A stretch of DNA of 37,532 nt from Nitrospiria bacterium (GTDB lineage Bacteria > Nitrospirota > Nitrospiria > DASWJH01), in contig DASWJH010000005.1 in NCBI GenBank assembly GCA_036397255.1, positions 1-37,532 of the forward strand, given 5' to 3'. Below the pieces are notes generated by a model. It saw only the letters and a list, made by a program, of their open reading frames with translations. It did no database searches and was not told the origin of the DNA. Numbering within the stretch: the first letter of the stretch is position 1; every line of letters begins with the position of its first letter. Positions 395 through 27,763 of this stretch are shown piece by piece. Made by a program: the position numbers and the translations under genes.

Positions 395-1252
395 CTATTC
401 AAAATTCTTATGTTTTGCGTATTTATCCGGCTCATTTTTAAATCGCTCTATACACCGTTTTGAACAAAACACATATTTTTTATCCTTATATTCATGGAAT
501 AGCGTTGCTGTCCATTCATCCACACGCATACCACACACAGGATCCCGTACCCACGAATGTTGTTCTGATTTCCGGTCGCGCAGTGAGCCGTCCTCAAGCC
601 AAAGAATCCGGTCCGCGATTTCTTCGACCCGTGGATCATGAGTAACCAAAATCACCGAACACCCTTCATCGCGTGCGATGTCATGTAAAATCATCATGAC
701 TTCCTGGCCGCTCGCGGAGTCCAGATTACCGGTTGGTTCGTCAGCCAGTATTAACCGTGGATGGTTAATGAGAGCACGTGCGATCGCTACCCTTTGTTTT
801 TCTCCACCTGAAAGGGTACGCGGATAAGCTTTACGACGTTGAGCAAGCCCCAATTGTTCGATCAACGAATGGGCACGGGGACGGGCTCGGCGAAGACCGC
901 CGGGGTGCAATGGGGCGGGAAACAGGATGTTCTCCTCTACCGTTAATGCATCTAATAGGTTGAAGGCTTGAAAGATAAAACCAATTTTCAGTGCGCGTAT
1001 CCCAGGAAGGTCCGTTTCTTTTAGCGCGGTGATATTCACGCCATCGATTTCAACCTGTCCCTTGGTGGGTCGAAGCAATCCCCCCAGCATGGAAAGCAAG
1101 GTTGTTTTTCCCGAACCGGAAGGCCCCATAATCAACAAAATTTCGCGATGCGGAATTTCTAAAGAAACGTCATGAACGGCACGTACTTCGGTGTGTCCGC
1201 GACCGTAAAATTTTGAAAGGTTGACTGCCCGGAGAAGTTGTGTAGAACCCAT
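395..1252 (-). CDS. ABC transporter ATPase with C-terminal YHS domain
   Basis: This is the 285-aa nucleotide-binding subunit of a MacB/LolD/DevA-type ABC transporter, expected to power the two permeases encoded just upstream. Visible motifs are Walker A GPSGSGKT (43-50), Q-loop Gln95, signature LSGGE (147-151), Walker B LILADEP (168-174) and H-loop His205. After a normal ATPase end near residue 228 the frame continues into a YHS metal-binding module (about 236-280) with DPVCGM and FCSKRC. I chose ATG 1252 because the frame upstream only overlaps the permease gene in another register; the gap to that gene is then 7 bp. ATPases of this group normally end without a YHS domain, so this is a fusion. 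Cytoplasmic soft-metal binding or sensing is inferred. Confidence 0.9.
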   Translation of the reverse strand: MGSTQLLRAVNLSKFYGRGHTEVRAVHDVSLEIPHREILLIMGPSGSGKTTLLSMLGGLLRPTKGQVEIDGVNITALKETDLPGIRALKIGFIFQAFNLLDALTVEENILFPAPLHPGGLRRARPRAHSLIEQLGLAQRRKAYPRTLSGGEKQRVAIARALINHPRLILADEPTGNLDSASGQEVMMILHDIARDEGCSVILVTHDPRVEEIADRILWLEDGSLRDRKSEQHSWVRDPVCGMRVDEWTATLFHEYKDKKYVFCSKRCIERFKNEPDKYAKHKNFE

Positions 1253-1259
1253 AAACAAC

Positions 1260-2372
1260 TCACACTTGAAAAACCGTGGCCGGGTCCAGCCGCGACACCA
1301 GGTATGCAGGAATGAGCGCACTGATTGCAGCCACGATGATGGCCACCACAGCCATCCCGGCAAGGTCACCTATGGAAACGACTAGAGTGACTTGGGGTAC
1401 CAATGTCGAAATAAATGGAAAAAACACGATGGCGAATATACCCGTCAACAATAAAGCCAACAAGGTAATTACCATCGCATGAAAGACAACAGCCGTATAT
1501 AGGAATAAATTTCGGATACCCACCGCCTTGGCGATCGCTAATTCACGGCGCTTTCGCATGACCTGGGTGTAGGACGTAAACCCAAGAATTAAGACCGCGA
1601 GTCCCGAGCAAATCACCGTCATCATAAAAATAATCTCCCCTCCCATCATCATCCCCAGAGCAAAATCACTTCGTACGAAATCCCCATGGGTCATCGCATT
1701 GACTTTTTCAATCTCATCCATGATGGTCTTTGTAAACCCCCGGGCGTCTATTCCCTCTTCGAGATCCACGAGTAAATAACTGTAGGTCCCAAATGCTGAT
1801 AAAATATCCGTCAAATCCGACATCGATACGAATGTTACCGAATTGGCCATTGAGTAAGTCTCTTCTGAAAGGCCAACGATCTTGAATGACCGGTCAGTGA
1901 TGGTTACACTGTCCCCAATCCCGACCCCACTGAGCTTGGAAAGAACTTCAGGGATCACCGTTTCACCGGAATGAAGCTGGGAACGACCTCCCGCCAGGGC
2001 CCATGGCCCGGCCCTACTGCTCCCTTCCTGAAGGCCGACAATAAAGGAAAAAGCATCTTGGTCTCCTGCATGCACGATTGTGTTGAGATACACAATAGGA
2101 GTAACACGCTTCACTCCAGGTAGCCTGGCAATTTTATCGGCTTTCCAGTCATAAACAAATGAGGTGGCCATGTGCATATTGGAGACACCGCGTTGCATCA
2201 CCCAAATGTCGGGTCTCGTATTCTCTAGATAGGCAACGATTTGTGTGGCCTCCCCTCGGAAAACGGCACTAAAAAAAATGACCAGGATAAATGCGCCCGC
2301 AAGGCCCCCTGCACTTCCGAAGAGTCCCCCACGTTGCCTGATTAAGGTTTTCCAGGCCCATCGCAACATCAT
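1260..2372 (-). CDS. FtsX/MacB-type ABC permease
   Basis: This 370-aa inner-membrane permease has the MacB/FtsX layout. There is one membrane helix near residues 18-36, then a large periplasmic domain (about 40-230), then three helices (about 245-268, 290-315 and 335-358). The C-terminal segment SRLDPATVFQV is typical of FtsX-like permeases. The DIWVMQRGVSNMHMATSF region resembles DevC-type permeases. The start is the first of two consecutive ATGs. The gene lies 4 bp after the stop of the upstream permease and 7 bp before the ATPase gene, so it is clearly co-transcribed. No periplasmic adaptor of DevB/MacA type is encoded alongside. The substrate is unknown; metal-linked export or lipid transport is only inferred from the neighbours. 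Confidence 0.85.
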   Translation of the reverse strand: MMLRWAWKTLIRQRGGLFGSAGGLAGAFILVIFFSAVFRGEATQIVAYLENTRPDIWVMQRGVSNMHMATSFVYDWKADKIARLPGVKRVTPIVYLNTIVHAGDQDAFSFIVGLQEGSSRAGPWALAGGRSQLHSGETVIPEVLSKLSGVGIGDSVTITDRSFKIVGLSEETYSMANSVTFVSMSDLTDILSAFGTYSYLLVDLEEGIDARGFTKTIMDEIEKVNAMTHGDFVRSDFALGMMMGGEIIFMMTVICSGLAVLILGFTSYTQVMRKRRELAIAKAVGIRNLFLYTAVVFHAMVITLLALLLTGIFAIVFFPFISTLVPQVTLVVSIGDLAGMAVVAIIVAAISALIPAYLVSRLDPATVFQV

Positions 2373-2376
2373 CTAA

Positions 2377-3510
2377 TTATTCCCCTTGAAAAGCCAGCAT
2401 CGGATCAGCTCGTCGAATCGACCGGAGCGGGATCAGCGCCCCCAAAATCGCGAAAAAACCACTTCCTAAGATGGTTGATAGAAACGTCGTTGGTTCATAC
2501 CAACGAATCAGATACACCGGGCCAAAGGTGTGAATAAACGAAGCGGTCCCAAGTCCAAGGATAACTCCAACCGGAATGGATATCATAAGAAGCAATAGCG
2601 CCTGCAGGATAATCCCATAAATTAATCTCACATGGGTAAACCCCAGCGCTTTGAGGACCCCAAAGTTCCGCAACCGGGATCGCACCTCCGCATACATTAC
2701 TAGGCCTACAACGAGTAATCCGATAATATATCCGACAAAGACCAACAGACCCATGACCGGGCCTAAAAATCCTCGGCCCATGTTCATGTCGCTCTCAGCG
2801 AGCTGTCCTGGTGTAAAAACGTCCACTTCGGGCACCCGACGCTCAATTTCCTCTGCAACCGCCTCCCGCTGGGCACCCGGCTCAAGGTCTACCAAAAGGA
2901 AACTCAACATCGGAAAAGTGGTTAAGTCCGGTGCAATGTCTGTTTCAATAAAAAGATCAATCATGCCGTCGAAATTGACAAATGCAAAAGGGGTAAACAA
3001 TGCGGCACTATCCTTAGAGATGCCTACGACTGTAAATTCGAAATCGAAAACCACGAACGGATCCCCAATATTAAGGTGATATTTCTTGGCCAAGGAGTCA
3101 TTCAAAATTATCTCTTTGCCCTTGGGAATACCATTTCCCCGCACCATATGAACAGGCCCGCCCTTGGTGTCAACAACAAAGAGAAAAACGGGAGTCTTCT
3201 CTCCTTCCTTTTCGTAGATCAAAGAAATCCAAGCCAGGGGATGGGCATTCACCACACCCGCAATCGATTCCACTTTCTCCCGTGAGAGCTGGGGTATGGA
3301 TGAGCGTACGGCCATAAGATTGGACACACCGGCCTGCGTCACAATCAAATCGGCTTGCCGATTAAAAACGGTACGGGCCAATTGATAATATTGACCCTGC
3401 TCAAAACCCTCAAGTGTCAGAACGACAGCGATGACGGCTCCCAAGGCAAGCGCTGTTAAAAACGTTCGCGCAGGATCAAGGCATAATTGTCGCCAAGCAA
3501 GCAAAAACAT
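2377..3510 (-). CDS. FtsX/DevC-like ABC permease
   Basis: This 377-aa inner-membrane permease is a paralogue of the next gene in the operon. It has an N-terminal helix (about 16-33), a periplasmic domain starting ARTVFNRQADLIVTQAGVSN, and three C-terminal helices near 255-277, 305-330 and 345-368. It ends in RRADPMLAFQGE. Two different permeases next to one ATPase suggest a heterodimeric transporter of the FtsX superfamily, acting by a mechanotransmission-type mechanism rather than classical pore transport. The start is 13 bp after the DUF3047 gene stop, and only a weak Shine-Dalgarno is visible. The assignment to the superfamily is firm; the cargo is unknown. Confidence 0.85.
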   Translation of the reverse strand: MFLLAWRQLCLDPARTFLTALALGAVIAVVLTLEGFEQGQYYQLARTVFNRQADLIVTQAGVSNLMAVRSSIPQLSREKVESIAGVVNAHPLAWISLIYEKEGEKTPVFLFVVDTKGGPVHMVRGNGIPKGKEIILNDSLAKKYHLNIGDPFVVFDFEFTVVGISKDSAALFTPFAFVNFDGMIDLFIETDIAPDLTTFPMLSFLLVDLEPGAQREAVAEEIERRVPEVDVFTPGQLAESDMNMGRGFLGPVMGLLVFVGYIIGLLVVGLVMYAEVRSRLRNFGVLKALGFTHVRLIYGIILQALLLLMISIPVGVILGLGTASFIHTFGPVYLIRWYEPTTFLSTILGSGFFAILGALIPLRSIRRADPMLAFQGE

Positions 3511-3523
3511 AAAATCAAAAACC

Positions 3524-4270
3524 TTATCCCTTATGGAATTTCAAATCGGTAATATAACTGACCGCATCCTGTCCCGTTTGATCGGTATCATTCAGAATGC
3601 CAATAAAGATTAAACGCCGGGGTTCTTCTTTATAAAGTTTCTTAAAATCCTCATACAAGTTTCTCTTGTACGAAAACCACCGATCCACGTTTTCGTGCCT
3701 ACCTTCAATTACCATTAACTTTTGCCAGGGCTTTCCGGGGTCATTAATAATATCCCCCGGTGTTAGGTGGCTACTCCAAAGAAACTCTGTAAAGCGACCC
3801 CCAACCGGGTGTCCATGAACCCAGTCTAAATAAAGAAACCGTTTGATTCGGAACCATAATGACTGCTTGGACTCATCGGGTTCAAAGACAAAAAAGATTC
3901 GAATGGGATGGTCATCTCCTTCCTGTGTCCTCTCATCAATTCCTTCCAGTATATTTTCAACTTTCCATTTCCAGGTCACAATGGGAAATTGTTTGATATC
4001 GATATTTACCCTCTTCTGCAAAAAGGTAAGGACCCCCTTGGATTCGAGTCTAACCGCCGCCACACCATTTTCCTTGACCCATTCCGCTCCGGCGCCTTTT
4101 GGTTTTCCAAACCACCCCTTAAATTTCCACCCTTCAGGGGTCTTCCCTTCCTGGTAGTGTTGGGGAGAAAGGCCCAAATCTATTGTCTCAACCGGGGCCT
4201 CCCCCCAACCTAATGAAAAAAAAACCAGACCCAGGGCCAAAATGTAAATGGTTATCATTTTTTTAAACAA
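3524..4270 (-). CDS. DUF3047-family exported protein
   Basis: This 248-aa protein has a signal peptide (about 1-23, hydrophobic core ITIYILALGLVFFSLGWG). It matches my recollection of DUF3047: a W-rich domain with TWKWKVENILEG, a DD segment followed by RIFFVFEP, a YLDWVHGHPVG region, and the C-terminal block RLIFIGILNDTDQTGQDAVSYITDL. The function of DUF3047 is unknown; the fold is probably beta-rich and periplasmic. It starts 4 bp after the glycosyltransferase stop and ends 13 bp before the first ABC permease, so its position suggests work on the periplasmic side of the ABC transporter. That role is inference from context. Confidence 0.8.
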   Translation of the reverse strand: MFKKMITIYILALGLVFFSLGWGEAPVETIDLGLSPQHYQEGKTPEGWKFKGWFGKPKGAGAEWVKENGVAAVRLESKGVLTFLQKRVNIDIKQFPIVTWKWKVENILEGIDERTQEGDDHPIRIFFVFEPDESKQSLWFRIKRFLYLDWVHGHPVGGRFTEFLWSSHLTPGDIINDPGKPWQKLMVIEGRHENVDRWFSYKRNLYEDFKKLYKEEPRRLIFIGILNDTDQTGQDAVSYITDLKFHKG

Positions 4271-4274
4271 GGGA

Positions 4275-5696
4275 TTACCTATCGGAACCGATATAATTAC
4301 TGTAACGTTCCGGATTCATTTTGAACCGGTTTTGGCACTCTTCCGAACAGAAGAAAAAGGTTTGCTGATTCATCCTGATTGTTAAATTGGATTCTTCCAC
4401 CACCATTCCACAAACAGGATCTTGCTTCATCTTGAATCCAGGTGCAAGGGAAACCCTCTGCTCCTTTTCGAGACCAACCATTAAGGATAAATGATCCAAG
4501 AGAAGGCGAGGAAGAAGAAAATGCTCTTTGACCCGTTGCTGCCCTTTTCTTGCTAATTCCTTTTTTTTCTCAGGTCGTTCAAGCAATTGAGAAATGGCTT
4601 CCGCACATTCCTCCACCCCATCCACGAGTATTCCCCCAACCCCATCCGCCATCTGAAGAGGAATCCCACCTGCCTTCCCAGCGACCACCGGAGTTTCTTT
4701 CCAGAGAGCCTCTGAAACAACAAGCCCAAAACCCTCCCGTATCGATTTTTGTACCACCACATCAGAGAGCCGCTGAAACGCATTCACTTCAATATTGCCT
4801 ACCCCGGTAAGATTGGTAAAAACATGAATAAAGGGATCTTTTCGGCCTTCCTTCATAATTTCCTGATATATTTTCCAACCCTCTGGGTCATCCAAGGCCA
4901 TGGAACCCACCAGGGCAAGCTGAAGATTTGGAATTTTTTCTCGGACCAGACGGTAGGCAGCGATAACACCCAAAGGGTCCTTCCAAAGATCAAAGCGGGA
5001 CACCTGGGTGATCAGTGGCTGATTTCCATCGATTCCGATCCAAGCCAGGATTTGACGTGCCATCTTCTTAGGAAGGTCCATATTTTTTGGACTTAAAGGA
5101 TCAATGGCGGGAGGTATAATGGTCACGTTGGCAATAGGGAAATCTGGGGGTAAAAACTCGCGCATGGTAAATATTGCAGCATTATAATCCTTAAGGAATC
5201 CTTTTAAAAATTTCCACACGGTTGGGTTGGGGTTTGCGGTATCTATATGGCATCGCCAAATCCATCTGGCGCGTTCATTGGGGCAGAGTAATAGCATCCC
5301 TGCGGGTTGGGGGTCATGGATAAAAACAAAGTCATATTGTTCCTGAAATTGGCGTGCATTCTTCTCCGTATTGGAAAGGTAAGCATCTTTTTCCCTGGAG
5401 GTTAATCCTTCCCTTGCTCCTTGAAGTCCATTGTGGACCTTCTTGGTGACATTAAAAAACTCGTCATCCCCACTAATTATTTTCCAGTCTGTGAGAATCC
5501 CAAGGTCGTTCATGAGGGGTACCAAAGACCGAAGCAACTCAGAAACACCTCCCCCATAGGGTGTTGCATTCACATGCACCACCCGCCTTCCTTTGAGTTC
5601 CCCTGCGATATGAATCAGATTATCCATGATGGCATCTGGTGCTATACCCCGATAGGCCTCTATTGAACGTTTTCCAATATCAACCGTCTGCAGCAT
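4275..5696 (-). CDS. GT4 glycosyltransferase (TreT-like) with C-terminal YHS domain
   Basis: Residues 1-420 of this 473-aa protein form a retaining GT4 glycosyltransferase resembling trehalose glycosyltransferring synthase (TreT, which joins NDP-glucose and glucose). Evidence is the N-terminal HVNATPYGGGVSELLRSLVP, EFFNVTKKVHNGLQG, FIHDPQ, the QVSRFDLWKDP loop, and the nucleotide-sugar motif IREGFGLVVSEALWKETPVV. From about residue 425 a complete YHS module follows (DPVCGM, then FFFCSEEC). Met423 sits at the junction, but no good Shine-Dalgarno precedes it, so I read one fused polypeptide. The protein is cytoplasmic. The 4-bp gap to the DUF3047 gene shows tight coupling. A trehalose-forming activity is likely but unproven, and the YHS domain may bind Cu+/Ag+ or regulate activity (inference). 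Confidence 0.88.
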   Translation of the reverse strand: MLQTVDIGKRSIEAYRGIAPDAIMDNLIHIAGELKGRRVVHVNATPYGGGVSELLRSLVPLMNDLGILTDWKIISGDDEFFNVTKKVHNGLQGAREGLTSREKDAYLSNTEKNARQFQEQYDFVFIHDPQPAGMLLLCPNERARWIWRCHIDTANPNPTVWKFLKGFLKDYNAAIFTMREFLPPDFPIANVTIIPPAIDPLSPKNMDLPKKMARQILAWIGIDGNQPLITQVSRFDLWKDPLGVIAAYRLVREKIPNLQLALVGSMALDDPEGWKIYQEIMKEGRKDPFIHVFTNLTGVGNIEVNAFQRLSDVVVQKSIREGFGLVVSEALWKETPVVAGKAGGIPLQMADGVGGILVDGVEECAEAISQLLERPEKKKELARKGQQRVKEHFLLPRLLLDHLSLMVGLEKEQRVSLAPGFKMKQDPVCGMVVEESNLTIRMNQQTFFFCSEECQNRFKMNPERYSNYIGSDR

Positions 5697-5731
5697 TCAA
5701 ATTCACCTTTAATTTCCCTTCATTTTTGTTT

Positions 5732-6537: not shown

Positions 6538-7059
6538 CTAGAGGGGAATTTTTTGTGATGCCCCCGCCTTAAAATCTTGGTACCGTACGAAAAGGGTACC
6601 TTCTTTCCGGATTTCAAATTGGAGCGTATCCAGAGGCCGGGGAGGAGGCCCTGCCAAAACCTTCCCATCAATATCGTAGACCCCGCCATGGCATGGGCAT
6701 TTAAAAAGGCGGTCCCCCTGGTCCCAATGATAAGTACACCCGAGATGTGTACAAAGCGGATTATAAACTCTTAGTTCTCCAGCCTGTTTCTAAACAACCC
6801 ATACCGTACGGACCAGGTTTGTACTTCTCCAACCATCCCGTAACTCAACCACGGTCTGCATATCCTGAGGGTGCCCGGGAACTAAACCCGCGATGGGTCC
6901 TGCATTATCCAGTTGTAGCGGCCTCCGTCTTAAGGCAGGTCCAATCACGTAACCCAAAAATGGAACTATAAGGGAGACACCTACAATCCCTGAAATGGCG
7001 ACAATAACTCTCCCCATAAACTTCCGTCGATTTGTACCTTCTTGATCAATTTTTTCCAT
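6538..7059 (-). pseudogene. Rieske Fe-S protein (QcrA-like) with in-frame TAG
   Basis: The frame encodes a complete 173-residue Rieske subunit if the TAG at 6792-6790 (codon 90) is ignored. The first part has a Tat-like RRKFMG motif and a membrane helix (about 17-40), then GPALRRRP. The part after the stop runs KQAGELRVYNPLCTHLGC and continues to CPCHGG, so both [2Fe-2S] ligand boxes lie downstream of the TAG. The two parts are in the same frame; the lesion is a single nonsense codon, not a frameshift. Without readthrough the 89-aa product cannot bind a cluster. No cytochrome b gene is adjacent, so this was a solitary Rieske protein. It could be a pseudogene, a sequencing error, or suppressed TAG; TAG ends other genes here, so recoding is unlikely. 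Confidence 0.82.
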
Positions 7060-7111: not shown

Positions 7112-7657
7112 TTATTTCTCTCCCTCTTTTGGCATCATTCCTTGCTGTCTCATCATCATCTCGTGCTGCTCTCTCAACTGATCCATCTCCCTCATCATTT
7201 CACCCATTTCACCCTTGGTTTTCCTATCTTTTGCCATTCCTTCCATCTGCCCCATCATCTTGTGCATCATCTCCATCATTTCACCCCGCTCCCTCATCAT
7301 CTCCATCTGACCCTTGCCCATCCTTTTCACATCCATCCCTTCACCTTCCATCATGCTTTTCGATTTCATCCTGGCCTGATGCCTTGTCATCATCTGGCCC
7401 ATTCTCTGCATCATTTTCCCCATCTCACGTTTCCCTTTTTCATCCTGTTGCATTCCTTGCATATGTCGCATCATCTCGTGCATCATCTCCATCATCTCAC
7501 CTCGATCCCTCATCATCTCCATCTGGCCCTTGCCCATGCTTTTCATATCGCCCTCCTTGCCCTTCATCATTCCCTCACCCCCCATTTGGGCAAATACCAA
7601 TGAGCCGATGGATACGGCACACATACAAACCAGCATTGAGATAATTCGATTTTTCAT
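7112..7657 (-). CDS. Met-rich periplasmic protein with internal duplication
   Basis: This 181-aa protein has a signal peptide (1-23, ending SLVFA). By my count the mature part has about 47 Met in roughly 158 residues, with many Lys, Glu, Gln and His. Two 48-residue repeats, at about 41-88 and 113-160, each start MGKGQMEMMR and contain RGEMMEMMH. The Met-x-x-Met pattern resembles periplasmic Cu+/Ag+ buffers. Similar Met clusters occur in CopA/PcoA, CusF and SilE-like proteins, but I recognise no named family. A strong site (GAGGGGGTAAAA) precedes the ATG. It is transcribed with the free YHS gene 15 bp upstream. I infer a periplasmic copper or silver sponge or chaperone, probably helical. The long plus-strand frames opposite it are artefacts of its ATG/CAT-rich codons. 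Confidence 0.85.
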   Translation of the reverse strand: MKNRIISMLVCMCAVSIGSLVFAQMGGEGMMKGKEGDMKSMGKGQMEMMRDRGEMMEMMHEMMRHMQGMQQDEKGKREMGKMMQRMGQMMTRHQARMKSKSMMEGEGMDVKRMGKGQMEMMRERGEMMEMMHKMMGQMEGMAKDRKTKGEMGEMMREMDQLREQHEMMMRQQGMMPKEGEK

Positions 7658-7672
7658 TTTTACCCCCTCTTT

Positions 7673-7822
7673 TTAATCGGGTTTCACAAATTGTTCAGGT
7701 GCCTTTTCGAATTTTTCCTTACAGGGGATAGAACAAAAATAATAGGTCTTTCCCTGATAGGTACTTGTCCCGGCTGCTTCTTTTTCATCTATTTGCATCC
7801 CGCAGACCAGATCCTTCACCAT
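7673..7822 (-). CDS. Free-standing YHS-domain protein
   Basis: This 49-aa protein consists of one YHS domain: KDLVCGM at residues 3-9 and YYFCSIPCKEKF near 27-38. YHS domains are small Cys-rich modules related to TRASH and are thought to bind soft metals. ATG 7822 was chosen over an upstream in-frame start because AAAGGAGGTGG lies just before it and nothing before it belongs to the domain. It lies 35 bp after the patatin gene and 15 bp before the Met-rich protein gene. It has no signal peptide, so it should be cytoplasmic, where it could pass metal to the YHS-bearing ATPase (inference). Confidence 0.88.
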   Translation of the reverse strand: MVKDLVCGMQIDEKEAAGTSTYQGKTYYFCSIPCKEKFEKAPEQFVKPD

Positions 7823-7857
7823 GAGGACCACCTCCTTTCCCAAATTCTCCCATCCTG

Positions 7858-8769
7858 TCAATCGCAGGGGTATTTCTTTTTTGAACCGGAGGAAAAAGAT
7901 TTTTCACCAAACTTCTTAAATAAGGGAGGAAGCAACCGGAGGGTTTCCTCAAATCCTTGGCGTAATATCCCCTCACCCTCCTCAGGTTTTAACCGGTCCA
8001 TTGGATCAATTCGGGGAGCCAATGTAAGGATCCCGGCCTTGCATCCACATGGGCAGTTCCCCATTTCCTCCTGCCCCGAAATCATTTCCTTCTCATAAAG
8101 TGCATCCAAGACTCTTTCCAGCACATGTAGCATACTCCAGCGTTCACGGATAAATCGATTATTCCCCGTAACCGAACCAAAGCTCGATTGAATCTGATTG
8201 ACAATTAGTATATCCAGGTTTTCTTTACAGCAAATGGCACTGCGCGGGGTAATTTCAAATACACCCCCGTCCACATAATAGGATTCCTCTATGCGTTTGG
8301 CCTTTAATAAAATAGGAATCGTTGCACTGGCTACTGCCCGGGGCGCAATCTCACCCGAATGGAAGACCTCTTTCACACCTTTTGTAATATTGGTTGCAAC
8401 GAGATAGACTGAAACCGGACAGGACTCCAATGTATTGGTGCAAAGTAGCCCGGAAATAGTCGCCTCCAGGCGATCGGTTGAAACAATACCGGTGTAATTC
8501 CTTCCCCTTTTAAATCCGATGTTAAAAAGAATCGTTGGGAGTGAATCCCTATTCCAGTAATCCCGGACGGTTAAACCCTTTAGCCATTCAGCAAATTCTT
8601 TGATCGGCTTTCCACTGCCGATAATAGAGGCCACGATGGCACCTGCACTGGAACCTGCCATCGCTTGATAAGGGACCCCCATCTCTTCCAAGGCCAATAA
8701 AAAACCGGTATGAGCAAATACGCCCCTCAGGTCCCCGGTTGAAAGCACAACGCCAATCCGATGTGTCAT
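7858..8769 (-). CDS. Patatin-like phospholipase
   Basis: This 303-aa cytoplasmic or membrane-associated serine acyl hydrolase has the patatin Ser-Asp dyad: GSSAG with Ser41 (39-43) and DGG with Asp167 (167-169). The usual glycine-rich oxyanion loop appears as STGDLRG (10-16). Length fits the NTE/RssA-like bacterial group. An unusual feature is the C-terminal NCPCGCKAG (238-246), a Cys cluster that could bind metal, and CC at 180-181. The expected reaction is hydrolysis of phospholipid or lysophospholipid acyl esters. It sits between the beta-propeller lipoprotein and free YHS genes in the long minus-strand run. A membrane-repair role during metal stress is inference only. Confidence 0.88.
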   Translation of the reverse strand: MTHRIGVVLSTGDLRGVFAHTGFLLALEEMGVPYQAMAGSSAGAIVASIIGSGKPIKEFAEWLKGLTVRDYWNRDSLPTILFNIGFKRGRNYTGIVSTDRLEATISGLLCTNTLESCPVSVYLVATNITKGVKEVFHSGEIAPRAVASATIPILLKAKRIEESYYVDGGVFEITPRSAICCKENLDILIVNQIQSSFGSVTGNNRFIRERWSMLHVLERVLDALYEKEMISGQEEMGNCPCGCKAGILTLAPRIDPMDRLKPEEGEGILRQGFEETLRLLPPLFKKFGEKSFSSGSKKKYPCD

Positions 8770-8810
8770 ATTGCCTTTAAAAGATTTTCCATTACGAAAA
8801 ATATGTATCT

Positions 8811-9902
8811 TTATTTTTTAAAAACCATTTGATGGGGAACAGGGCCCGTTTCAATTTCACCTTGTATCTTCCCGGACCATGCATTCAATATCCAAATCTT
8901 TCCGAGAGACCGGCTTCCGACAAAAACCCTTTTATTGTTGGGATCCACCGAAAGATGATAGGGACTCTCGCCAACCGTCCAGGTCTTGGTTTGTTGCGTG
9001 TGGGTGTCATAAAGGGTAACGGTATTATCGTTTTGATTGGCAACGAAGACCGTCTTCCCACTGGGGTGAACATCAATCCCATGGGGATTGGCCCCAACTT
9101 TAAAAACCGAAATTTCCTTCTCCAACCTCCGTTCTATCAAGGACACGGTTTCATCAAATGCATTTACCACATAAACCAAGTGGCCATCCGGACTTTCCAC
9201 CAAATGCCCGGGCCCTTTTCCCACTTTGATCTGCTTCCGAACCAGCCACGTTTGGGTATTAATGGAAGTAACCGTCCCATCCCCCGTATTACTCACATAG
9301 AGGTCTTTGCCGTCCTTTGTGGCTAAAACATAGTTGCTGACCGCCCCCGTTTTAATATTATGGATGACCTGTTGTGTAGAAGTGGAGACCACAGCGATCC
9401 CTCCTTGGGAGGGGACAGAAAAAACCGCAAATCGTCCATCTGGCGTCACAACCCCATGGTGGGTACCGGCCCCGACGTTTATTTGGGCCACCACTTTCCC
9501 ATTGGATGTCTCAACCATCACCACATTCCCCGTTTCATTGTCCCTTGGGGTATCCTTCCCTCTAACCGGCTCATCTCCATGATCGTGTTCCCCTCTTCCA
9601 CTCATTGGGCTGTGTTTCATTTCCTTGGGACTCTCCTTCGTACTGGTAGCATATAAAAATAGCCCATCCGGGGTGATGGCCAGCCCATGAGGATTGTATC
9701 CCCCCTCAAACCTTCGTATGATCCTATTAGAAGACAGATCAAGCTCTATAATCTGATGGGTCGCCCCCATGGAAATATAAGCCCTACCGGTGGATTTTCC
9801 TCCACACCCAGAAAAAATAGTGAAGAGGAAAAACAATCCGAAAATAAAACAAACGAACTCTTTCTGTGAAACCCTTTCTTTTTTTTCCTGACTGTTCGTC
9901 AT
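8811..9902 (-). CDS. YVTN-type beta-propeller lipoprotein
   Basis: This 363-aa protein has a lipoprotein signal (hydrophobic 16-30, lipobox IFSGC with Cys33). The mature part is a seven-bladed-type propeller of about 42-residue YVTN/YncE repeats. Characteristic segments are NPHGLAITPDGLFLYAT, GHLVESPDGHLVYVVN, NPHGIDVHPSGKTVFVAN and SPYHLSVDPNNKRVFVG. A His-rich insert (KHSPMSGRGEHDHGDEP, about 102-118) could bind metal. ATG 9902 was preferred because it starts just before the lipoprotein signal and leaves a 32-bp gap to the upstream gene; the frame extends far upstream but overlaps that gene. YVTN propellers of this kind often sit with copper or redox proteins, and their function is usually unknown. 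Confidence 0.85.
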   Translation of the reverse strand: MTNSQEKKERVSQKEFVCFIFGLFFLFTIFSGCGGKSTGRAYISMGATHQIIELDLSSNRIIRRFEGGYNPHGLAITPDGLFLYATSTKESPKEMKHSPMSGRGEHDHGDEPVRGKDTPRDNETGNVVMVETSNGKVVAQINVGAGTHHGVVTPDGRFAVFSVPSQGGIAVVSTSTQQVIHNIKTGAVSNYVLATKDGKDLYVSNTGDGTVTSINTQTWLVRKQIKVGKGPGHLVESPDGHLVYVVNAFDETVSLIERRLEKEISVFKVGANPHGIDVHPSGKTVFVANQNDNTVTLYDTHTQQTKTWTVGESPYHLSVDPNNKRVFVGSRSLGKIWILNAWSGKIQGEIETGPVPHQMVFKK

Positions 9903-9934
9903 CCTACGTCCCATCCCTCTTTTTTCTGAAAAAT

Positions 9935-10618
9935 TTAGGGAACTTCCCATTGCAACACCATCTCTTGGTTCCCCTGCAATTTTTGAATCACCAGCTCTAT
10001 AAAAATAGGGGGGCGCTCCCCAGGTATATGTTCTCCGGTAAGATGGCCCATCATCAAAGTTCCAGCCTTGTTCCTCTGGGGAAAATATAAAATTCCCTCC
10101 AAATGTTGGGGAGAGAAACTGGTCAACTTCGACCACATCAAAGGTTTTGCTTCATCGCCTTTGTCATTGCGTAGGAGAACGTTCTCCTTAACGGAGTATT
10201 CAAACAAGTCAAAAGAGTCGGAATCCATCACAAGGGTAAACACAATGTCGCTGTGAACACGAAAACGCTCGGCATATTCGTGGAAAAGGACCTCATGCCT
10301 TTTAACATCATGTTCCCTCTCTGCTGCGGCAAGGGCTTTGAAAAACGTTGGTGAATTCCAGGTAGCCAAGATTTGAACTTTTTCATTTTTTTTAAATCGG
10401 GTAAACTGCTTTCTTACTTTTTCAAATTCCTCATGTTCAGGGGAACCCTTGGAAGGAAGGCCTTTACCGGGAATATCCGGGGCCTCCGCCACGAATTTCT
10501 CCACTTTGGCATGCTGGGCCCAATCCCAATAGATCACCCCAACTAAAAACAAAGCCCCAATTACTATCCATAACCAGATTTTTGTTCTCCCAGTCTCGTT
10601 TTTAATTTTTGAAATCAT
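9935..10618 (-). CDS. Unknown membrane-anchored protein
   Basis: This 227-aa protein has one N-terminal membrane helix (about 13-33) with a positively charged lead, followed by an extracytoplasmic domain of about 190 residues beginning WDWAQHAKVEKFVAEAPD. I do not recognise the family. The domain is mixed alpha/beta in appearance, with a His-rich helix (EREHDVKRHEVLFHEY, about 99-114) and a Met/His segment TLMMGHLTGEH near 190. It contains no Cys, so a YHS-like or thiol function is excluded. It lies 26 bp after the 2-TM protein gene and 32 bp before the propeller gene. Its position suggests an extracytoplasmic accessory protein of the metal island. Confidence 0.75.
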   Translation of the reverse strand: MISKIKNETGRTKIWLWIVIGALFLVGVIYWDWAQHAKVEKFVAEAPDIPGKGLPSKGSPEHEEFEKVRKQFTRFKKNEKVQILATWNSPTFFKALAAAEREHDVKRHEVLFHEYAERFRVHSDIVFTLVMDSDSFDLFEYSVKENVLLRNDKGDEAKPLMWSKLTSFSPQHLEGILYFPQRNKAGTLMMGHLTGEHIPGERPPIFIELVIQKLQGNQEMVLQWEVP

Positions 10619-10644
10619 CCTATCGCCCTTTCCGTTATCCGGAT

Positions 10645-10921: not shown

Positions 10922-11206
10922 TCAGGCTGCTTTTATATAGGTTTCGGGGTCTTTCTGGAATTTTTCTTGGCATTGGGCTGAACAAAAATAATAAAGCCCT
11001 CCCCGATACATTTTGGTAAAATTCGCTGTGCGGGCATCGAGCCTCTCCCCACAGACGGGATCCTGGACGGGTCTTGAGGTTTCTTTTCCAGAGAATTCCT
11101 CATGATGGCCCCCATGACCACCCCCCATCATATGGGCCCCGCACCCCCAGCGCATCATGACAAAAAACAGAATTCCAATAAAAAGGAAATACAGCACATC
11201 AGACAT
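10922..11206 (-). CDS. Membrane-anchored YHS protein with His/Met linker
   Basis: This 94-aa protein has one N-terminal helix (3-19), then a metal-binding-looking linker CGAHMMGGGHGGHH (22-35), then a YHS domain (about 48-92) with DPVCGE and YYFCSAQCQEKF. The usual Met of the VCGM box is Glu here, the only such change among the six YHS copies. It is encoded 109 bp after the P-type ATPase and 19 bp before the 2-TM protein. Given the short N-terminus before the helix, the YHS side could be either face of the membrane. A copper chaperone that docks metal to or from the ATPase is a reasonable inference. Confidence 0.87.
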   Translation of the reverse strand: MSDVLYFLFIGILFFVMMRWGCGAHMMGGGHGGHHEEFSGKETSRPVQDPVCGERLDARTANFTKMYRGGLYYFCSAQCQEKFQKDPETYIKAA

Positions 11207-11315: not shown

Positions 11316-13895
11316 TCACAGATTCACGTTTCTCAATCGAAGGGCATTGGTGATGACGGAAACAGAACTAAAGCTCATGGCTGCGGCAGCGATCATCGGT
11401 GATAACAGAAGACCGAATATGGGGTAGATCACACCAGCGGCAATGGGAACCCCAACTGAATTGTAGACAAATGCAAAGAAAAGGTTTTGACGGATATTCC
11501 GCATAGTGGATCGGCTTAAACGCCGTGCACGGACGATGCCCCTAAGATCCCCTTTAACCAAAGTCACCCCGGCACTCTCCATCGCCACATCGGTACCCGT
11601 GCCCATTGCAATACCCACCTGGGCCTGAGCCAAGGCCGGTGCATCGTTGATACCGTCCCCTGCCATGGCCACCGTTCTTCCCTCAGCCTGAAGTTTTTTT
11701 ATTACTTCGGCCTTCTGATCCGGCAGAACTTCGGCCTGGACCTGATCGATATTTAGCTTCCCGGCTACGGCTTCGGCGGTTTTTCGGCTATCTCCGGTAA
11801 GCATAACCACCTTAATCCCTTCGGCATGTAGGTCCCGTATCGCCTCGGGTGTGGTCTCTTTGATGGGATCGGCAACTCCAATCAACCCAACCGCTTTCCC
11901 GTCTATACTCAATAACATAACCGTTTGACCTTCCGCCCGCTGCCGGTCTGCCTGTTGACCTAAATCTCCGGCATCGATCCCCAAATCCTCCAAAAGCTTA
12001 AGGTTACCCAATGCTACCTGACGACCATCCACTTCACCGGTGACACCTTTACCGGTTACCGACTGAAAGTGGTTGGCTTGCCCCAATTCAATTCCTTTTT
12101 CCTCCGCACCCCGAACAATCGCCTCGGCCAATGGGTGTTCGCTGGCCTTCTCCAGCGTCGCTGCCACCTTTAAGGCTTCTTCTTCATTCTCCCCTTCGAC
12201 AACCGTTACCGCGACGAGCTTAGGTTTACCTTCTGTCAATGTACCGGTTTTATCCACCACCAGTGTATCGACTTTCTCCATGATCTCCAGGGCCTCGGCA
12301 TTTTTGATCAGCACCCCCAGGGTCGCCCCTTTTCCGGTTCCCACCATAATCGACATGGGTGTGGCTAACCCTAACGCGCAGGGGCACGCGATAATCAACA
12401 CGGCCACGGCATTAATCACCGCATGAGCCAACCTCGGCTCAGGCCCCCAGAAACCCCAGACCCCCAGTGTAAAAAATGCAATGAGGATAACCGCGGGAAC
12501 AAAATATCCGGAGACAGTATCCACCAGCTTTTGAATCGGAGCGCGGGAACGCTGGGCCTCGGCAACCATATGGACGATTTGCGACAACAGGGTATCAGCC
12601 CCGACTTTTTCCGCCTTCATCAATAAACTACCGGTACCATTAACAGTTGCCCCGATCAGTCGTTCACCAGCCGTTTTGGCAACTGGGATCGGTTCCCCTG
12701 TGACCATAGACTCATCCACATTGCTTTGTCCTTTAACCACCGAACCGTCTACTGGAACTTTTTCACCCGGGCGGATGCGAAGTATATCCCCCGATTTCAC
12801 ATGTTCCAATGGAATGTCCTCTTCCAGGCCCCCTTCATGGACAATACGGGCGGTTTTCGGTGCCAGTCCCAGCAATAATTTGATCGCAGCACTGGTTTGA
12901 CTGCGTGCCCGAAGTTCCAATACCTGCCCGAGAAGAACCAAGGCGGTGATCACCGCCGAAGCCTCAAAATAGACCGGAACCACCCCCATTTCATTGAACA
13001 CGGACCTTGGGAAAATTCCCGGAATGAGAGCCGCGATTGCACTATAGGTCCAGGCTACACCCACCCCCATCCCAATGAGGGTAAACATATTGAGGTTGCG
13101 GGTCACCACTGAATTCCATCCGCGCACAAAGAAAATCCACCCTCCCCACCAGACAACTGGAGTGGCCAATCCCATCTCCACCCATTGTCGGATACGGGGT
13201 TTAATGATCTCCGCAAGCGCTTCCGGCCAGAACTCTGCTCCCATTGCACTCAAAAATATTGGAATGGCGAGCAGGGTGCTGACCCAAAACCGCCGGGTCA
13301 TATCATCCAGCTCGGTTGTATCTTCTTCTACGGTAACCGTTCGGGGCTCAAGGGCCATTCCGCATTTAGGGCAGTTACCTGGATGATCCTGAACCACTTC
13401 AGGGTGCATGGGACACACATATTCCGTTTTGCTGACTGCAACCGGTAACCCTTTTGGCTCCAAGGCCATACCGCATTTAGGGCAACTCCCCGGCCCCACC
13501 TGTTCAATTTCGGGGTCCATGGGGCATGTAAAAATTCTTTCCTCCCCTCCTGGTTTTTCCTCCTTCTGGGTTTTTGCTCCCCCAACTTCTTTTTTTAGAA
13601 ATTGTTGAGGATTTTCCTGAAACTTTCCTAAGCAATGCGTGCCGCAAAAATAATAGGTTTTCCCTTCATGAGTGTGTTCTCCGGATGCTGTTTTTGGATC
13701 GACGCTCATCCCGCAAACCGGGTCGATTTCCTTCCCAACGGCAACGGATTCACCCGGAAGGAACCTGGAAGGTTCGGCTTGAAACTTTTCCAGGCAATGG
13801 GTGCTGCAAAAATAGTATGTCTTCCCTTCATGGGTATGCTTTCCCTCGGCCTTCTCCTCCTCAACATCCATTCCACATATTGGATCCGTTGCCAT
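11316..13895 (-). CDS. copA: Cu+-exporting P1B-type ATPase with tandem YHS and HMBD domains
   Basis: This 859-aa ATP-driven exporter of Cu+ (or Ag+) carries four N-terminal metal modules: YHS1 (about 1-46), YHS2 (57-102), and two heavy-metal-binding domains with CPMDP...CPKCGM (124-143) and CPMHP...CPKCGM (161-180). The ATPase core shows MVTGEP (397-402), CPC (504-506), the phosphorylation site DKTGT (548-552), HP (587-588) and GDGIND (746-751). Membrane residues CPC, YN (811-812) and MSFSS (840-844) match the Cu+ subgroup P1B-1. There is no classical HMA CxxC domain; the YHS/HMBD modules replace it. The start is the ATG directly before YHS1. It lies 24 bp after the methyltransferase-like gene and is probably the core of the island. 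Confidence 0.95.
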
Positions 13896-20838: not shown

Positions 20839-21232
20839 ACTATTTGAAGGATGAGTCTTTACTGAAAATCTTTCAAATTTAACCCCTTCACACCCAACGT
20901 GCGTCACACCGATTTGATCCCTTTTTTAAAAAACCGATAAACCCGGGTCTATCCTTAAAAAGTCGTCATTGCCGCGCAGGCGGGAATCCAGCATTTTTAT
21001 TTTGGTCTTGCCTCCGACCTCAATCCTCTGACATTTCTCCTGACGCCCCACATCATTTTTGTTTATCTGGTTTTATCAATGCCTCAAGCCTCCAACCTCT
21101 ATCCTCAAACGTTTTTCACTAAGGACAACGAGCGCCTTGACCCCCTTAAGATTGACAACCAACCCTTTTTTTCCTATTATCCGAAACAAATTTACACAGG
21201 GTACAAAAATTTTAATAATGGAGGAACGTAAT
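20839..21232. other. Intergenic region
   Basis: No gene is seen. It contains one palindromic repeat (20965-20993). The frame entering from 21059 is open but has no domain before the DUF1326 start. The site GGAGG at 21219-21223 belongs to that gene. Confidence 0.5.
20965..20993. repeat. Interspersed palindromic repeat
   Basis: GTCATTGCCGCGCAGGCGGG followed by AATCCAGCA. It is a copy of the 20262 element with one change in the left arm. Confidence 0.7.
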
Positions 21233-21883
21233 ATGAGTGATAAATGGATGCTTCGTGGGAAAGAATTCACAAACTGCAATTGTGCTTATGGATGCCCCTG
21301 CCAGTTTAATTCGCCGTCAACCCATGGATTTTGCGAAGCCGTCGCGAGCGCCTTGATTGAAGAAGGGTATTTTAATGACACCCGATTAGATGGGCTAAGT
21401 TTTTGTATTCTTCTCAAATGGCCTGGGGAAATTGCCAATGGAAACGGTCGTTCTCAATTGATTATTGATGAGCGGGCGAATGAAAAACAGCGGGAGGCGA
21501 TCAATAAAATAGCCCATGGGGAATCCACCGCCCCCGGCGCCACCCATTATTTTGTTTTTTACAGCACCATGTCAGAGGTGCTTGAAACACTCTATGCACC
21601 CATTGAGATAAGCATCGATATCGATGCCAGAAAGGCCCATACACGGATTGAAGGTTTGGTGGAATCCGCCGGGGCCCCGTTGATTGACCCCTTCTCCGGC
21701 CAGGAGGCGCGAAAAGGCATCCATTTACCCAACGGTTTTGAGTATACCTATGCAGAAATGGGTAGCGGCAACTCTAGGGTCACCGCAGGCATTCAATTAG
21801 GGTTTAGTAACAGTTACGGCCAATTTAATATCTTGCATATGAACCAGGACGGCGTAATCCGCGATAAGAAACTGGCATTCTAA
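21233..21883 (+). CDS. DUF1326 protein
   Basis: This 216-aa protein's N-terminal motif NCNCAYGCPCQF (Cys15, 17, 21 and 23) and later HYFVFYSTM and HTRIEGLVESAGAPLIDPF fit DUF1326. ATG 21233 was chosen because GGAGG lies 9 nt before it; an in-frame ATG at 21218 has no such site. The Cys cluster suggests metal binding; the biochemical role is unknown. The DUF2182 gene starts 4 bp after its stop, the usual partner of DUF1326, so the two very probably work as one unit. There is no signal peptide, so it should be cytoplasmic. Confidence 0.88.
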   Translation: MSDKWMLRGKEFTNCNCAYGCPCQFNSPSTHGFCEAVASALIEEGYFNDTRLDGLSFCILLKWPGEIANGNGRSQLIIDERANEKQREAINKIAHGESTAPGATHYFVFYSTMSEVLETLYAPIEISIDIDARKAHTRIEGLVESAGAPLIDPFSGQEARKGIHLPNGFEYTYAEMGSGNSRVTAGIQLGFSNSYGQFNILHMNQDGVIRDKKLAF

Positions 21884-21887
21884 AACA

Positions 21888-22658
21888 ATGGGAATTTCCT
21901 ATAAATTACCCCGCCGAGATTTTCTTGCGATTACCACTTCTCTTGGGGGTGTCACTCTATTGTGTTGGGTTTATCTGTTTTGGATGGCCCGCGATATGTC
22001 TACACCCGAATACCTCACCTTTGCGGCTTTGCAGATGGAGCAATGGAGCGCGGGATATTTTTGGATGATGTTTTTGATGTGGGCCATCATGATGGTTGGG
22101 ATGATGGTTCCTTCGGTGGCCCCGATGATTCTGATCTATTCCGCGGTGGTTCGAAAATCTGAAAAACAAGGCACCCCCGTTGCCCCAACCGGTCTTTTTA
22201 CGATTGGCTATTTGATGATCTGGATACTATTTAGCCTTTTAGCAACAATTGCCACCTGGGGATTGAACCAGGCCTCCCTTTTATCCCCCATGTTGGTTGC
22301 AAACAGCCCCTGGTTGGGGGCAGCGTTACTGGTTGGAGCAGGGATCTATCAGTTGCTGCCGTTAAAGGATGCCTGCCTTCAACATTGCCGATCTCCTTTT
22401 CACTTTATTTCTTCCCATTTTTCCCCGGGGCCTTTCGGGGCAATTAAGATGGGTTTATCCCATGGGATCTATTGCTTGGGATGTTGCTGGGTATTGATGC
22501 TGCTTTTGTTTGTCGGTGGGGTAATGAACCTGGTATGGATCGGGGCGATTACATTATTTGTGTTTTTGGAAAAAGTTCTACCGATGGGAAATACCGGCGG
22601 TCGATGGATGGGAATGGTAATGATCACCGTCGGTGGGACGATTTTGTTGTTACAATGA
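21888..22658 (+). CDS. DUF2182 membrane protein
   Basis: This 256-aa polytopic membrane protein has about six or seven helices. The conserved blocks of DUF2182 are visible: WMMFLMWAIMMVGMMVPSVAPM (about 53-74) and GLSHGIYCLGCCWVLMLLLF (about 188-207). Both are rich in Met and Cys inside the membrane, which suggests soft-metal handling. It is coupled to the DUF1326 gene by a 4-bp gap. Function is unproven; a metal transporter or membrane metal-binding partner is inferred from the residues. Confidence 0.87.
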   Translation: MGISYKLPRRDFLAITTSLGGVTLLCWVYLFWMARDMSTPEYLTFAALQMEQWSAGYFWMMFLMWAIMMVGMMVPSVAPMILIYSAVVRKSEKQGTPVAPTGLFTIGYLMIWILFSLLATIATWGLNQASLLSPMLVANSPWLGAALLVGAGIYQLLPLKDACLQHCRSPFHFISSHFSPGPFGAIKMGLSHGIYCLGCCWVLMLLLFVGGVMNLVWIGAITLFVFLEKVLPMGNTGGRWMGMVMITVGGTILLLQ

Positions 22659-22909: not shown

Positions 22910-25900
22910 TTATCTTTCATGGGCCATCGTATCCAGAGAACCGGGCTCCCCGGCGGATTCCGATGGGAGTTCGGGGATAGGGGGGGAAGGGTGGTTTTTT
23001 GCAATTAGCATGTAGAGCGAAGGAACCACAAAAAGCGTAAAGATCGTGCCAATGGTCATCCCCCCGACCAGGACCAGGCCAATAGAGTTACGTGCCGCGG
23101 CACCCGGCCCGTCAACCAGCGTAAGCGGAAAATGTCCTGCAACGGTTGCAACGGACGTCATCAACACCGGGCGCAATCGAGTCATGGCGGCTTCTTTAAT
23201 GGCAGACAGTTTGTCAGAGCCACTTTCCTGAAGCTTGTTGGCAAATTCAACGATGAGGATCCCATTCTTAGCCACCAGACCCACGAGGGTGACCAGCCCG
23301 ACCTGCGCGTAAATATTCATTGTCGTGGTCCACCCGTCGGTCCAGTAGGAAAGGTCCGGGTTGGGCATCTTCAGGGCGGTAAAGATCAGGGCCCCGAACA
23401 TCGCAAGCGGTGCGGACCCCAGTAGTATTACGAAAGGATCCCGGAACGAGTTGAACTGCACCGCAAGCACGAGGAAAATCATAAGGATCGCGAGTCCCAA
23501 CGCAGGAAGAAACTTGCCCCCTTCGGTTCGAAGCTGCCGTGATTCACCGGTGTAATCGATTGTGTACCCGGGAGGCAGAATCTCCCGCGCGGCGTTCTCG
23601 AGAACCTTTAGCGCTTCGTCCAACTGGGCCGTCATTCCGGATAGCTTGATGGCATTGAGCTGCTGGAAACGGTTGAGCGAACGGGGGACCGTGCTATCGC
23701 GAATGGTCGCAAACGTGCTGAGGGACACAAGCTGGTTGTTCGGGCCTCTTACGTAAATGTCGGTCAACTGATCCGGATTGAGCCGTTCGGCCCGAACGAT
23801 TTGAGGGATTACCTTGTAGGCCCGTCCATCGATGTTGAACCGATTGACGTAGTTTCCGCCTACAGCCGCCCCTAGATCCGCACCAATCTGAGCGTTATTC
23901 AAACCGAGCATCGCAACCTTTTGGTGGTCAAGTACAATTTCCGACTGGGGCTGATCATATTTCAGGTCAATCTCCGGAGGGAAATAAAACAGGCCGCTTT
24001 CCATCGCCTTCATTTGAAGTTCTTCCGCAATCCCCAGCATCCGTTCCGGCTCCTCCGTTGATGCGATAATAAATTCAACCGGAAAGTTTCCTCCCCCAGG
24101 GAGTGCGGGGGGTCTGGAAGCAAAAATTTGTAAACCGGGAATGGCCGATAGCTTTGCCTGCATCTCAGGGAGGATTTCCTTGATGGAACGAGTCCGCTGA
24201 TTCCAGGGTTTCACAACCATGCCGCTGAATCCGCCAACCCCCAACGCCGCCGCAAATGGATCCGATGGTGACATGAGAAGTTGGAAGGTAAGATCCCTTT
24301 CCGGCGCTGAGAGAAAAACCTGTTGAGCGGCCCGGCCAAAATGACTCTTCTGATCCGCGGAGGCATTTGCGGAATTGTTGATGATGCCGAACATAAAACC
24401 TTGGTCCTCTACGGGCGCAAGTTCCTTTGGTGAAAACATGTACATGGGAAACGTCATCAAACTGAGAATGATCCATACCATGTAAACAGCCGGACGCGCG
24501 TTCAAGGTTCGATCGAGCATCCCCCCGTAAACCCGGCGCAGGCGGTCGAAATGATGATTGACCCAACCCGTGAAACCCCGCTCTTCGCGCTCTGCGCTAC
24601 GGAACAACTTCGCCGCCATCATTGGGGACAGCGTGAGGGCCACGATACCCGAAATGGTGACCGCTCCCGCAAGGGTAAGGGCGAATTCACGGAACAGCGC
24701 CCCTGTCAGACCGCCCTGCAGACCGATTGGGGTGTACACCGCAGCGAGTGTAATCGTCATTGCGATGATGGGCCCGATCAACTCGCGGGCCCCGATTAAG
24801 GCGGCTTGAAATGGGGTGCGGCCCAGGCGAAGGTGCCGTTCCGCATTTTCAACCACGACGATGGCGTCATCGACAACAAGACCCACCGACAATACAATGG
24901 CAAGCAGCGTGAGCAGATTAAGTGTAAATCCGAACAACTGCATCAGAAAGATACCGCCAATTAACGACACCGGAATAGCGATGACCGGAACCAACACCGA
25001 CCGGAACGAACCGAGGAAGAGAAAAATGACAATCACGACAATGGTAAGCGTGTCGGTCAGAGTGCCGACTACCTCGTGGATGGCGCTGTTGACGTATTCG
25101 GAGGTGTCATACCCGATTCCGACCTCTAGCCCTTTGGGCACATCCCGTTTGATCGCATCCAGTTCGGTCCGCACCCGGTTGACGACTTCGATGATGTTGG
25201 CATTGGGAAGGGCATGAATTCCCATGAAGACAGCGCTTTTTCCGTTAAAGCTCACCTCCGTATCGTAGTCCTCCGCCCCAAGCTCCACCTCAGCCACATC
25301 CTGTAACCGAACAATGGTATCGTTTTCCCGGCGGATAATAATCTGCTTAAACTCCTCCGCCGTGTGCAAGTCGGTGTTGGCGGTAAGGTTGACTTGAACG
25401 AAAGCGCCTTTTGTGCTGCCGATGGCGGCAAGATAATTATTGGCATCAAGCGCAGCGCGGACCTGCGCAGGGCTGACGTTCAAAGCAGCCATCTGAGCCG
25501 GTTTTAACCACACCCGCATGGCGAATGTGCGCGCACCGAAAAACTCCGTACGCTGTACCCCCGTCAGAGCAGCCAGACGGGGTTGAGCAATCCGAACCAG
25601 GTAATCCGTAATTTCGCTTTGGGAAAGAATTTCAGATGAAAAACTCAGGTAGGCGGCCGCAAATTCAGAATCCGCCGATTGAATACTGATGGACGGCACC
25701 TCGGCTTCCGGCGGCAGCTCGTTGCGCACCTGGTTTACTTTCGCCGTGATGTCGGCAAGGGCTTTGGTTGAATCGTAATTGAGCTTGAGCCGGGCCGTGA
25801 TCAGCGAAAGGCCTGACAGGCTTTTGGATTCAACGTAGTCGATCCCGTCTGCGGAGGAGATGGAGCGTTCAAGAGGGGTGGTGACAAAACCCCGCACAAG

Positions 25901-26074: not shown

Positions 26075-26086
26075 AGGAGTGTCCGG

Positions 26087-27226: not shown

Positions 27227-27763
27227 TTTTTCCCTTTTGGTCAGTTCGATCGTCAAATTTCAAAACGCTGCGCATCAAGCATGTACGGTTACATTTTTCT
27301 CATTGAAGCTGTGATGTTGTTTGGAAAATACAATGTTTTTAGCCGGTCTTTTCCGATTGTCATACATGTAGACTCAAGATTTGAAGTTTACCTCAGTTCT
27401 CAAACTGACGTCAATTACCAATGCCAAATCGTTTAAGGTATCATTTTGGGGGAATTTTAGACAAGTAATGGATGGTTAATTGAGTACGGTTTATTGAGGT
27501 CCTGCTACAGGGCTATCATATTGCCTTCCGTGTCTGTAACTTGGGCATATAAACCCATATCGGCGATTTGCACTTTGGACAATAAGCAACATTCCCCACC
27601 TTCCTAGATTGGTTAAAAACCATTGACACAATCAAATAGGTATATAACAATGTTGCTTTGGAACAACTAGGTTAAAAAAATCCAAAGGCCACTCTTGACG
27701 CCATCTTTTGCGGGTCTCGCTGACCCAACGCGACGGGCAAAAGATTAACAAGTCATAGAGGAT
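27227..27763. other. Divergent intergenic region
   Basis: It holds the candidate RND promoter-operator at 27385-27414. A TTGACA at 27623-27628 followed by an AT-rich TATATAAC gives no standard spacing. TGGTT-AAA-AACCA at 27610-27622 is a short inverted repeat ahead of the plus-strand gene. No gene is visible. Confidence 0.5.
27385..27414 (-). promoter_or_regulatory. Candidate RND operon promoter with operator
   Basis: On the minus strand, -35 TTGACG (27414-27409) and -10 TAAACT (27390-27385) are 18 bp apart. The spacer contains TCAGTT-TGAG-AACTGA (27408-27393), a perfect 6-bp inverted repeat such as TetR-type repressors bind. The leader to the adaptor start would be about 150 nt. Confidence 0.45.

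Follow-up and report, generated by a model that had tools for sequence, protein, structure and literature searches.

The class IIIc adenylyl cyclase of M. phlei carries a C-terminal YHS domain that confers activation by 1-10 µM Cu2+, an effect that is specific and reversible, with D178, C181, C204, and C208 of the YHS domain proposed as ligands (PMC4626032). YHS domains also occur in CopA-type ATPases, which are membrane transporters with the domain at either the N- or the C-terminus. The known structures of trehalose synthases of the TreT type (GT4), from P. horikoshii (2x6q) and T. uzoniensis (6zj4), end near residue 411 without a YHS domain; the P. horikoshii enzyme dimerizes via its C-terminal part (PMC11046441). 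Our search of the literature found no paper joining YHS with a glycosyltransferase or trehalose, or with a phosphorylase.

Here we describe a TreT with a YHS domain at its C-terminus (TreT-YHS), encoded in the window, by which we mean the whole 37,532-nucleotide stretch of contig DASWJH010000005.1 that was analyzed. The protein may tie the synthesis of a sugar protectant to metal stress. Like the M. phlei cyclase, it is a soluble enzyme with a single C-terminal YHS domain after a short linker and the same D-C-C-C set of residues, and in both cases the domain is a single-domain add-on seen in several bacteria. The two differ in that their catalytic domains are unrelated, the product of the cyclase is cAMP, and the cyclase linker is shorter (8-11 residues vs. 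9-29 in TreT-YHS). The YHS-bearing CopA-type ATPases have a domain of the same family and are encoded beside TreT-YHS in the window, in locus L065 and on S. mirabilis plasmid pI, but are not sugar enzymes.

Architecture of TreT-YHS

The minus-strand frame from 5696 to 4275, exactly the interval given in a preliminary description of this DNA, contains 473 codons and no stops, and encodes a TreT-type GT4 part followed, after a short linker, by a YHS domain that is nearly complete (Table 1). The Pfam matches were TreT_GT1 (PF21269, residues 41-182, 2.2e-55), Glycos_transf_1 (PF00534, residues 221-388, 1.3e-22), and YHS (PF04945, residues 425-467, 39.7 bits vs. a gathering cut-off of 30.3, profile positions 2-45 of 47), which together with the open frame confirm the glycosyltransferase-YHS architecture first described. 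The start of the protein, MLQTVDxG, is conserved in its relatives. A scan for promoters and terminators gave no more than chance level.

The preliminary assignment to TreT was likewise upheld, based on the PF21269 and PF00534 matches and on solved structures. The nearest of these, both by sequence (1e-112) and by fold, are the TreTs of P. horikoshii (44% identity, TM 0.90) and T. uzoniensis (42% identity, TM 0.96; both TM values normalized by TreT length), with the same domain order, fold and EX7E glutamates at about 42-44% identity over about 400 residues. The EX7E pair and the GGG loop are invariant among 92 aligned sequences, and E321 of the window protein aligns with P. horikoshii E326, which is mutated in PDB 2xmp. 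The score against the NCBIfam equivalog TreT_Thcocales (NF041139) fell below its cut-off (416.5 vs. 775 bits); because this model is specific for Thermococcales, the miss bars the equivalog label only.

In the AlphaFold model the enzyme part is confident (mean pLDDT of 89), linker residues 416-421 are below 50, and the YHS domain is good to moderate. Based on this confidence profile, the Pfam matches and the closest structures, the window protein is a complete TreT to which a YHS domain is attached by a short flexible linker. The same genome encodes two further TreT copies, on contigs C13 and C79, both without YHS and both outside the clade of fused proteins described below, as well as one OtsA-type enzyme. 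One of these unfused paralogs (contig C13; L048, 2268-3551, minus strand) adjoins an alternative F-type ATPase operon and a CBS-domain-like gene.

Table 1. Coordinates of the fusion gene, its parts and neighboring genes in the window.
Feature	Coordinates	Strand	Evidence
TreT-YHS fusion gene, 473 aa	4275..5696	-	One open frame, Pfam, relatives
GT4 (GT-B fold) TreT-type catalytic part, residues 37-406, EX7E pair E321/E329	4479..5588	-	Pfam, structure, alignment
Flexible linker, residues 411-423	4428..4466	-	AlphaFold model, alignment
YHS domain, residues 424-467; presumed metal ligands D426, C429, C450, C454	4296..4427	-	Pfam, alignment
Shine-Dalgarno-like AAAGGTGA ahead of the TreT-YHS start	5703..5710	-	
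DUF3047 protein, TTG start 4 nt past the TreT-YHS stop	3524..4270	-	Pfam
FtsX/MacB-like ABC permease	2377..3510	-	
FtsX/LolC-like ABC permease (weak family match)	1260..2372	-	
ABC ATPase of LolD/MacB type, itself tagged with YHS at the C-terminus; end of the tight gene run starting with TreT-YHS	395..1369	-	
Small stand-alone YHS protein	7673..7861	-	
YVTN beta-propeller protein	8811..10136	-	
94-aa protein, YHS at C-terminus	10922..11206	-	
CopA-type P-type metal ATPase; CPC motif, two YHS domains at the N-terminus, two HMBD domains	11316..13895	-	

A cluster of YHS genes in the window

Six of the seven YHS domains in the genome are encoded within 14 kb of the start of this contig (chance about 4e-11): one in TreT-YHS, one in the ABC ATPase, one in each of two small YHS proteins, and two in the CopA-type ATPase. 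The genes for TreT-YHS, the DUF3047 protein, the two permeases and the ABC ATPase-YHS either overlap or lie no more than about 15 nt apart, and may therefore constitute one operon with a YHS-tagged protein at both ends. No other ABC-YHS fusion was seen among the matches listed when the last 101 residues of the window ABC ATPase were searched against 391 sampled Nitrospirota genomes. Mis-binning of the contig was considered and rejected, as the tetranucleotide profile of the window (0.954-0.958) is inside the range of stretches of the host (0.942-0.987).

Several further genes were observed in the window. A Rieske iron-sulfur protein gene (6613-7059, minus strand) has a single in-frame TAG at 6790-6792, past which the frame remains open and includes CTHLGC and CPCHGG, so that the TAG is either a nonsense mutation or a sequence error. 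Between this gene and that of the small stand-alone YHS protein is the gene for a Met-rich, apparently exported protein of 181 residues (7112-7657, minus strand), a possible periplasmic metal binder. A DUF1326 protein gene followed by PpoB2 (Pfam "copper chaperone") is situated at 21059-22658 (plus strand), and RND-type pump genes, recognized from sequence, are at 22910-27256 on the opposite strand.

Distribution and history of the fusion

The fusion is not the rarity that the preliminary description implied, but a widespread family present in many bacterial phyla. In a sample of 396 genomes of the phylum it was found in one other genome, that of the public Nitrospirae bacterium JdFR-81 (G178, locus L075), whose protein has 62% identity to that of the window. 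A contig scan seeded by the window protein alone gave no match. When bacterial genomes were scanned with the aligned window and JdFR-81 proteins as query, in a search seeded by two conserved peptides and not a census, 54 loci were obtained, 24 with an intact TreT-YHS and two more with a disrupted frame. Fused TreTs occur in at least eight phyla: Actinomycetota (Rubrobacter, Streptomyces, Glycomyces, and Streptoalloteichus), Chloroflexota, Thermomicrobiota, Myxococcota, Acidobacteriota, Planctomycetota, Gemmatimonadota, and Nitrospirota, along with pseudomonadotal MAGs. A plasmid search gave three matches, all to Streptomyces plasmids, and both of the two that were examined have the YHS tail; the domain is easily overlooked in these copies because they are annotated only as "glycosyltransferase." TreT-YHS is thus a real and conserved enzyme architecture, and apparently an undescribed one.

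The most conserved part of the fused proteins is the GT core and the least conserved is the linker (9-29 residues). The pattern D-x2-C ... C-x3-C is present in the window YHS domain, and its residues D426, C429, C450, and C454 occupy the same four positions as the ligands proposed for the M. phlei cyclase. Among 25 fused proteins, the first three are each conserved in 24 and C454 in all 25. A natural variant from Gemmatimonadales (L092:8001-9458, plus strand) retains only one of the three cysteines presumed to be ligands, the other two having been lost (DPVSGV, FQSEEC).

A tree of 69 rows was built from the GT part alone. It unites the 25 fused proteins with 12 proteins without YHS in one supported clade (97/90), and there are no fused proteins outside this clade. 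The presence and absence of YHS on this tree needs eight changes, at least six of them by supported branches, counts that give no direction. The simplest reading would be one old fusion, followed by losses and by transfer between phyla. The 12 clade members without YHS imply that the domain is dispensable in some lineages; no stand-alone YHS gene that could be a split-off domain was found adjoining the unfused clade members. Local capture of YHS from a neighboring gene is not supported, the fusion being common to relatives and probably old.

The surroundings of the fused genes are varied. In JdFR-81, TreT-YHS is directly downstream of a YHS-thioredoxin-reductase-like gene and is followed by a gene for a propeller-type repeat protein (recognized by eye from sequence), a YVTN beta-propeller gene being present in the window as well; three metal P-type ATPases are encoded on the same JdFR-81 contig. 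The thioredoxin-reductase-like enzyme has an N-terminal YHS domain (L075:219-1439, plus strand; equivalent to L047:13950-15173, minus strand). On plasmid pI of S. mirabilis P16B-1 the order is a metal ATPase with C-terminal YHS, ftsH, and TreT-YHS, the last with locus tag SMIR_RS40965, and on plasmid pFRL3 TreT-YHS is amid merA, ArsR, a metal-sensitive regulator and a metal ATPase. Many chromosomal fused genes adjoin carbohydrate or stress genes (PPDK, PEPCK, GalT, phosphoketolase, acetate kinase, and Usp). Metal (CPx-)ATPases were not significantly enriched near fused vs. unfused TreTs (6/27 vs. 3/22, p = 0.49), and we therefore do not argue for metal-gene enrichment on chromosomes in general; the corresponding values for GalT were 9/26 vs. 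3/28 (p = 0.05).

An acidobacterial locus (L073) encodes, in order, TreT-YHS, a CopA-type ATPase, a glycogen phosphorylase (PF00343) with an N-terminal YHS domain (8790-10637, plus strand), a debranching-type enzyme and acetate kinase. Searching Nitrospirota with this phosphorylase revealed many full-length YHS-tagged relatives, and the D-C-C-C set is kept in all 17 of the loci examined (L149-L157, L161-L168). These tagged phosphorylases are similar to TreT-YHS in being alpha-glucan enzymes with a ligand-intact YHS domain, often near other YHS genes, and differ in enzyme family and in the N-terminal position of the domain. A second YHS gene is present within about 8 kb at 10 of the 17 tagged loci vs. 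none of 19 untagged phosphorylase loci (Fisher 8e-5, indicative only, as the genomes are related), while the untagged phosphorylase adjoins an untagged TreT in six of the 19. This suggests that an ordinary TreT-phosphorylase module exists and that its YHS-tagged versions live in YHS neighborhoods.

Possible metal control of trehalose synthesis

In the mechanism we propose, a cytosolic TreT-type glycosyltransferase would form trehalose from NDP-glucose and glucose, and its C-terminal YHS domain would bind a thiophilic transition metal, most likely copper, via the presumed ligands. Occupancy of the tethered domain would alter the activity of the adjoining GT domain, and trehalose synthesis would thereby respond to metal load. 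The route from glycogen to trehalose may be under the same signal, as the tagged glycogen phosphorylases suggest. Metal binding by the YHS domain is probable since the ligand residues are conserved. Allosteric control of the GT domain is proposed with moderate confidence by analogy with the cyclase, and it is this analogy alone that suggests that the metal is copper and that its effect is activation. Since P. horikoshii TreT dimerizes through its C-terminal part, a YHS domain tethered at that end could reach the dimer; this and the M. phlei precedent lead us to favor metal-dependent modulation. A tie between trehalose synthesis and copper, as the preliminary description had suggested, is plausible given the conserved putative ligands, the metal-resistance neighborhoods here and on Streptomyces plasmids, and the Cu2+-activated cyclase (PMC4626032). 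Counted against metal control are the many fused genes among carbohydrate and stress genes, the similar frequency of CPx-ATPases near fused and unfused TreTs, the clade members without YHS, the cysteine losses in the Gemmatimonadales variant, and the predicted disorder of the linker, which would allow a tether without allostery. On balance, we consider the chances that TreT-YHS is a trehalose synthase modulated by copper or a similar metal bound to its YHS domain to be about even.

The YHS domain could instead serve for docking or metal handling, holding TreT (and glycogen phosphorylase) near YHS metal ATPases, or buffering or passing on metal, with catalysis left uncontrolled. We regard this as doubtful. 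In its favor, metal ATPases adjoining fused genes are often YHS-bearing (the window, L065, L159, and L160), tagged phosphorylases cluster with other YHS genes, and the linker is predicted to be flexible; against it, many fused TreTs lack a YHS ATPase in the surrounding 8 kb, although the gene for such a partner might lie elsewhere. A structural role, in which a treble-clef-like domain with constitutive Zn or no metal aids stability or dimerization and senses nothing, would be in keeping with the relationship of YHS to the TRASH domain, as it occurs in ribosomal L24e with an occupied site (PMC4626032), with weak L24e matches, and with TreT dimerization through the C-terminal part (PMC11046441). 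We think it unlikely, as the TreT core fold is complete without YHS, the domain is missing from the 12 clade members and from all other TreTs, and there is a link to metal-resistance loci.

That YHS is a passenger spread by recombination among neighboring YHS genes would fit the six copies in the window and the similarity of the window TreT YHS to that of the ABC ATPase (42%), which is about that to other TreT YHS domains (27-49%). This seems very unlikely to us, however, since the ligand residues are conserved across phyla, at the same position and in one clade. Least credible, to the point of being negligible, is that the fusion is an artefact of annotation or sequencing, or that YHS is translated separately, starting at Met423; the preliminary description had named a stop or frameshift at residues 420-424 and independent translation from Met423 as what would refute the fusion. 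Met423 as a possible start codon is all that favors it, and there is no clear ribosome-binding site ahead of this codon. The other fused homologs have a DPVCGM-type motif in the same frame after the linker, and such an explanation is refuted for the family by at least 24 independent genomes that have the in-frame fusion, most of which have no Met at this position.

If metal-dependent modulation is correct, the level of a protectant sugar would be set directly by metal load via regulation of the enzyme and not by transcription, and YHS would be a metal sensor that can be plugged into soluble enzymes in general, for which the adenylyl cyclase is the only tested case that we found. YHS tags touch two enzymes of one pathway, TreT and glycogen phosphorylase. 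A broader and more tentative reading, which we think somewhat doubtful, is that YHS is a reusable metal-sensing module that has been added independently, in many phyla, to glycogen-trehalose enzymes, often in metal-resistance islands or plasmids. Metal stress would then directly gate the conversion of storage glucan to trehalose, a post-translational switch from metal to carbohydrate not described before. The question is testable now because some of the bacteria with TreT-YHS are in culture, among them Anaeromyxobacter oryzisoli; Streptomyces mirabilis P16B-1, which has metal-resistance determinants on plasmid pI and of which there is also a plasmid-cured strain (PMC9195940); and Rubrobacter taiwanensis, which has one fused and one unfused TreT.
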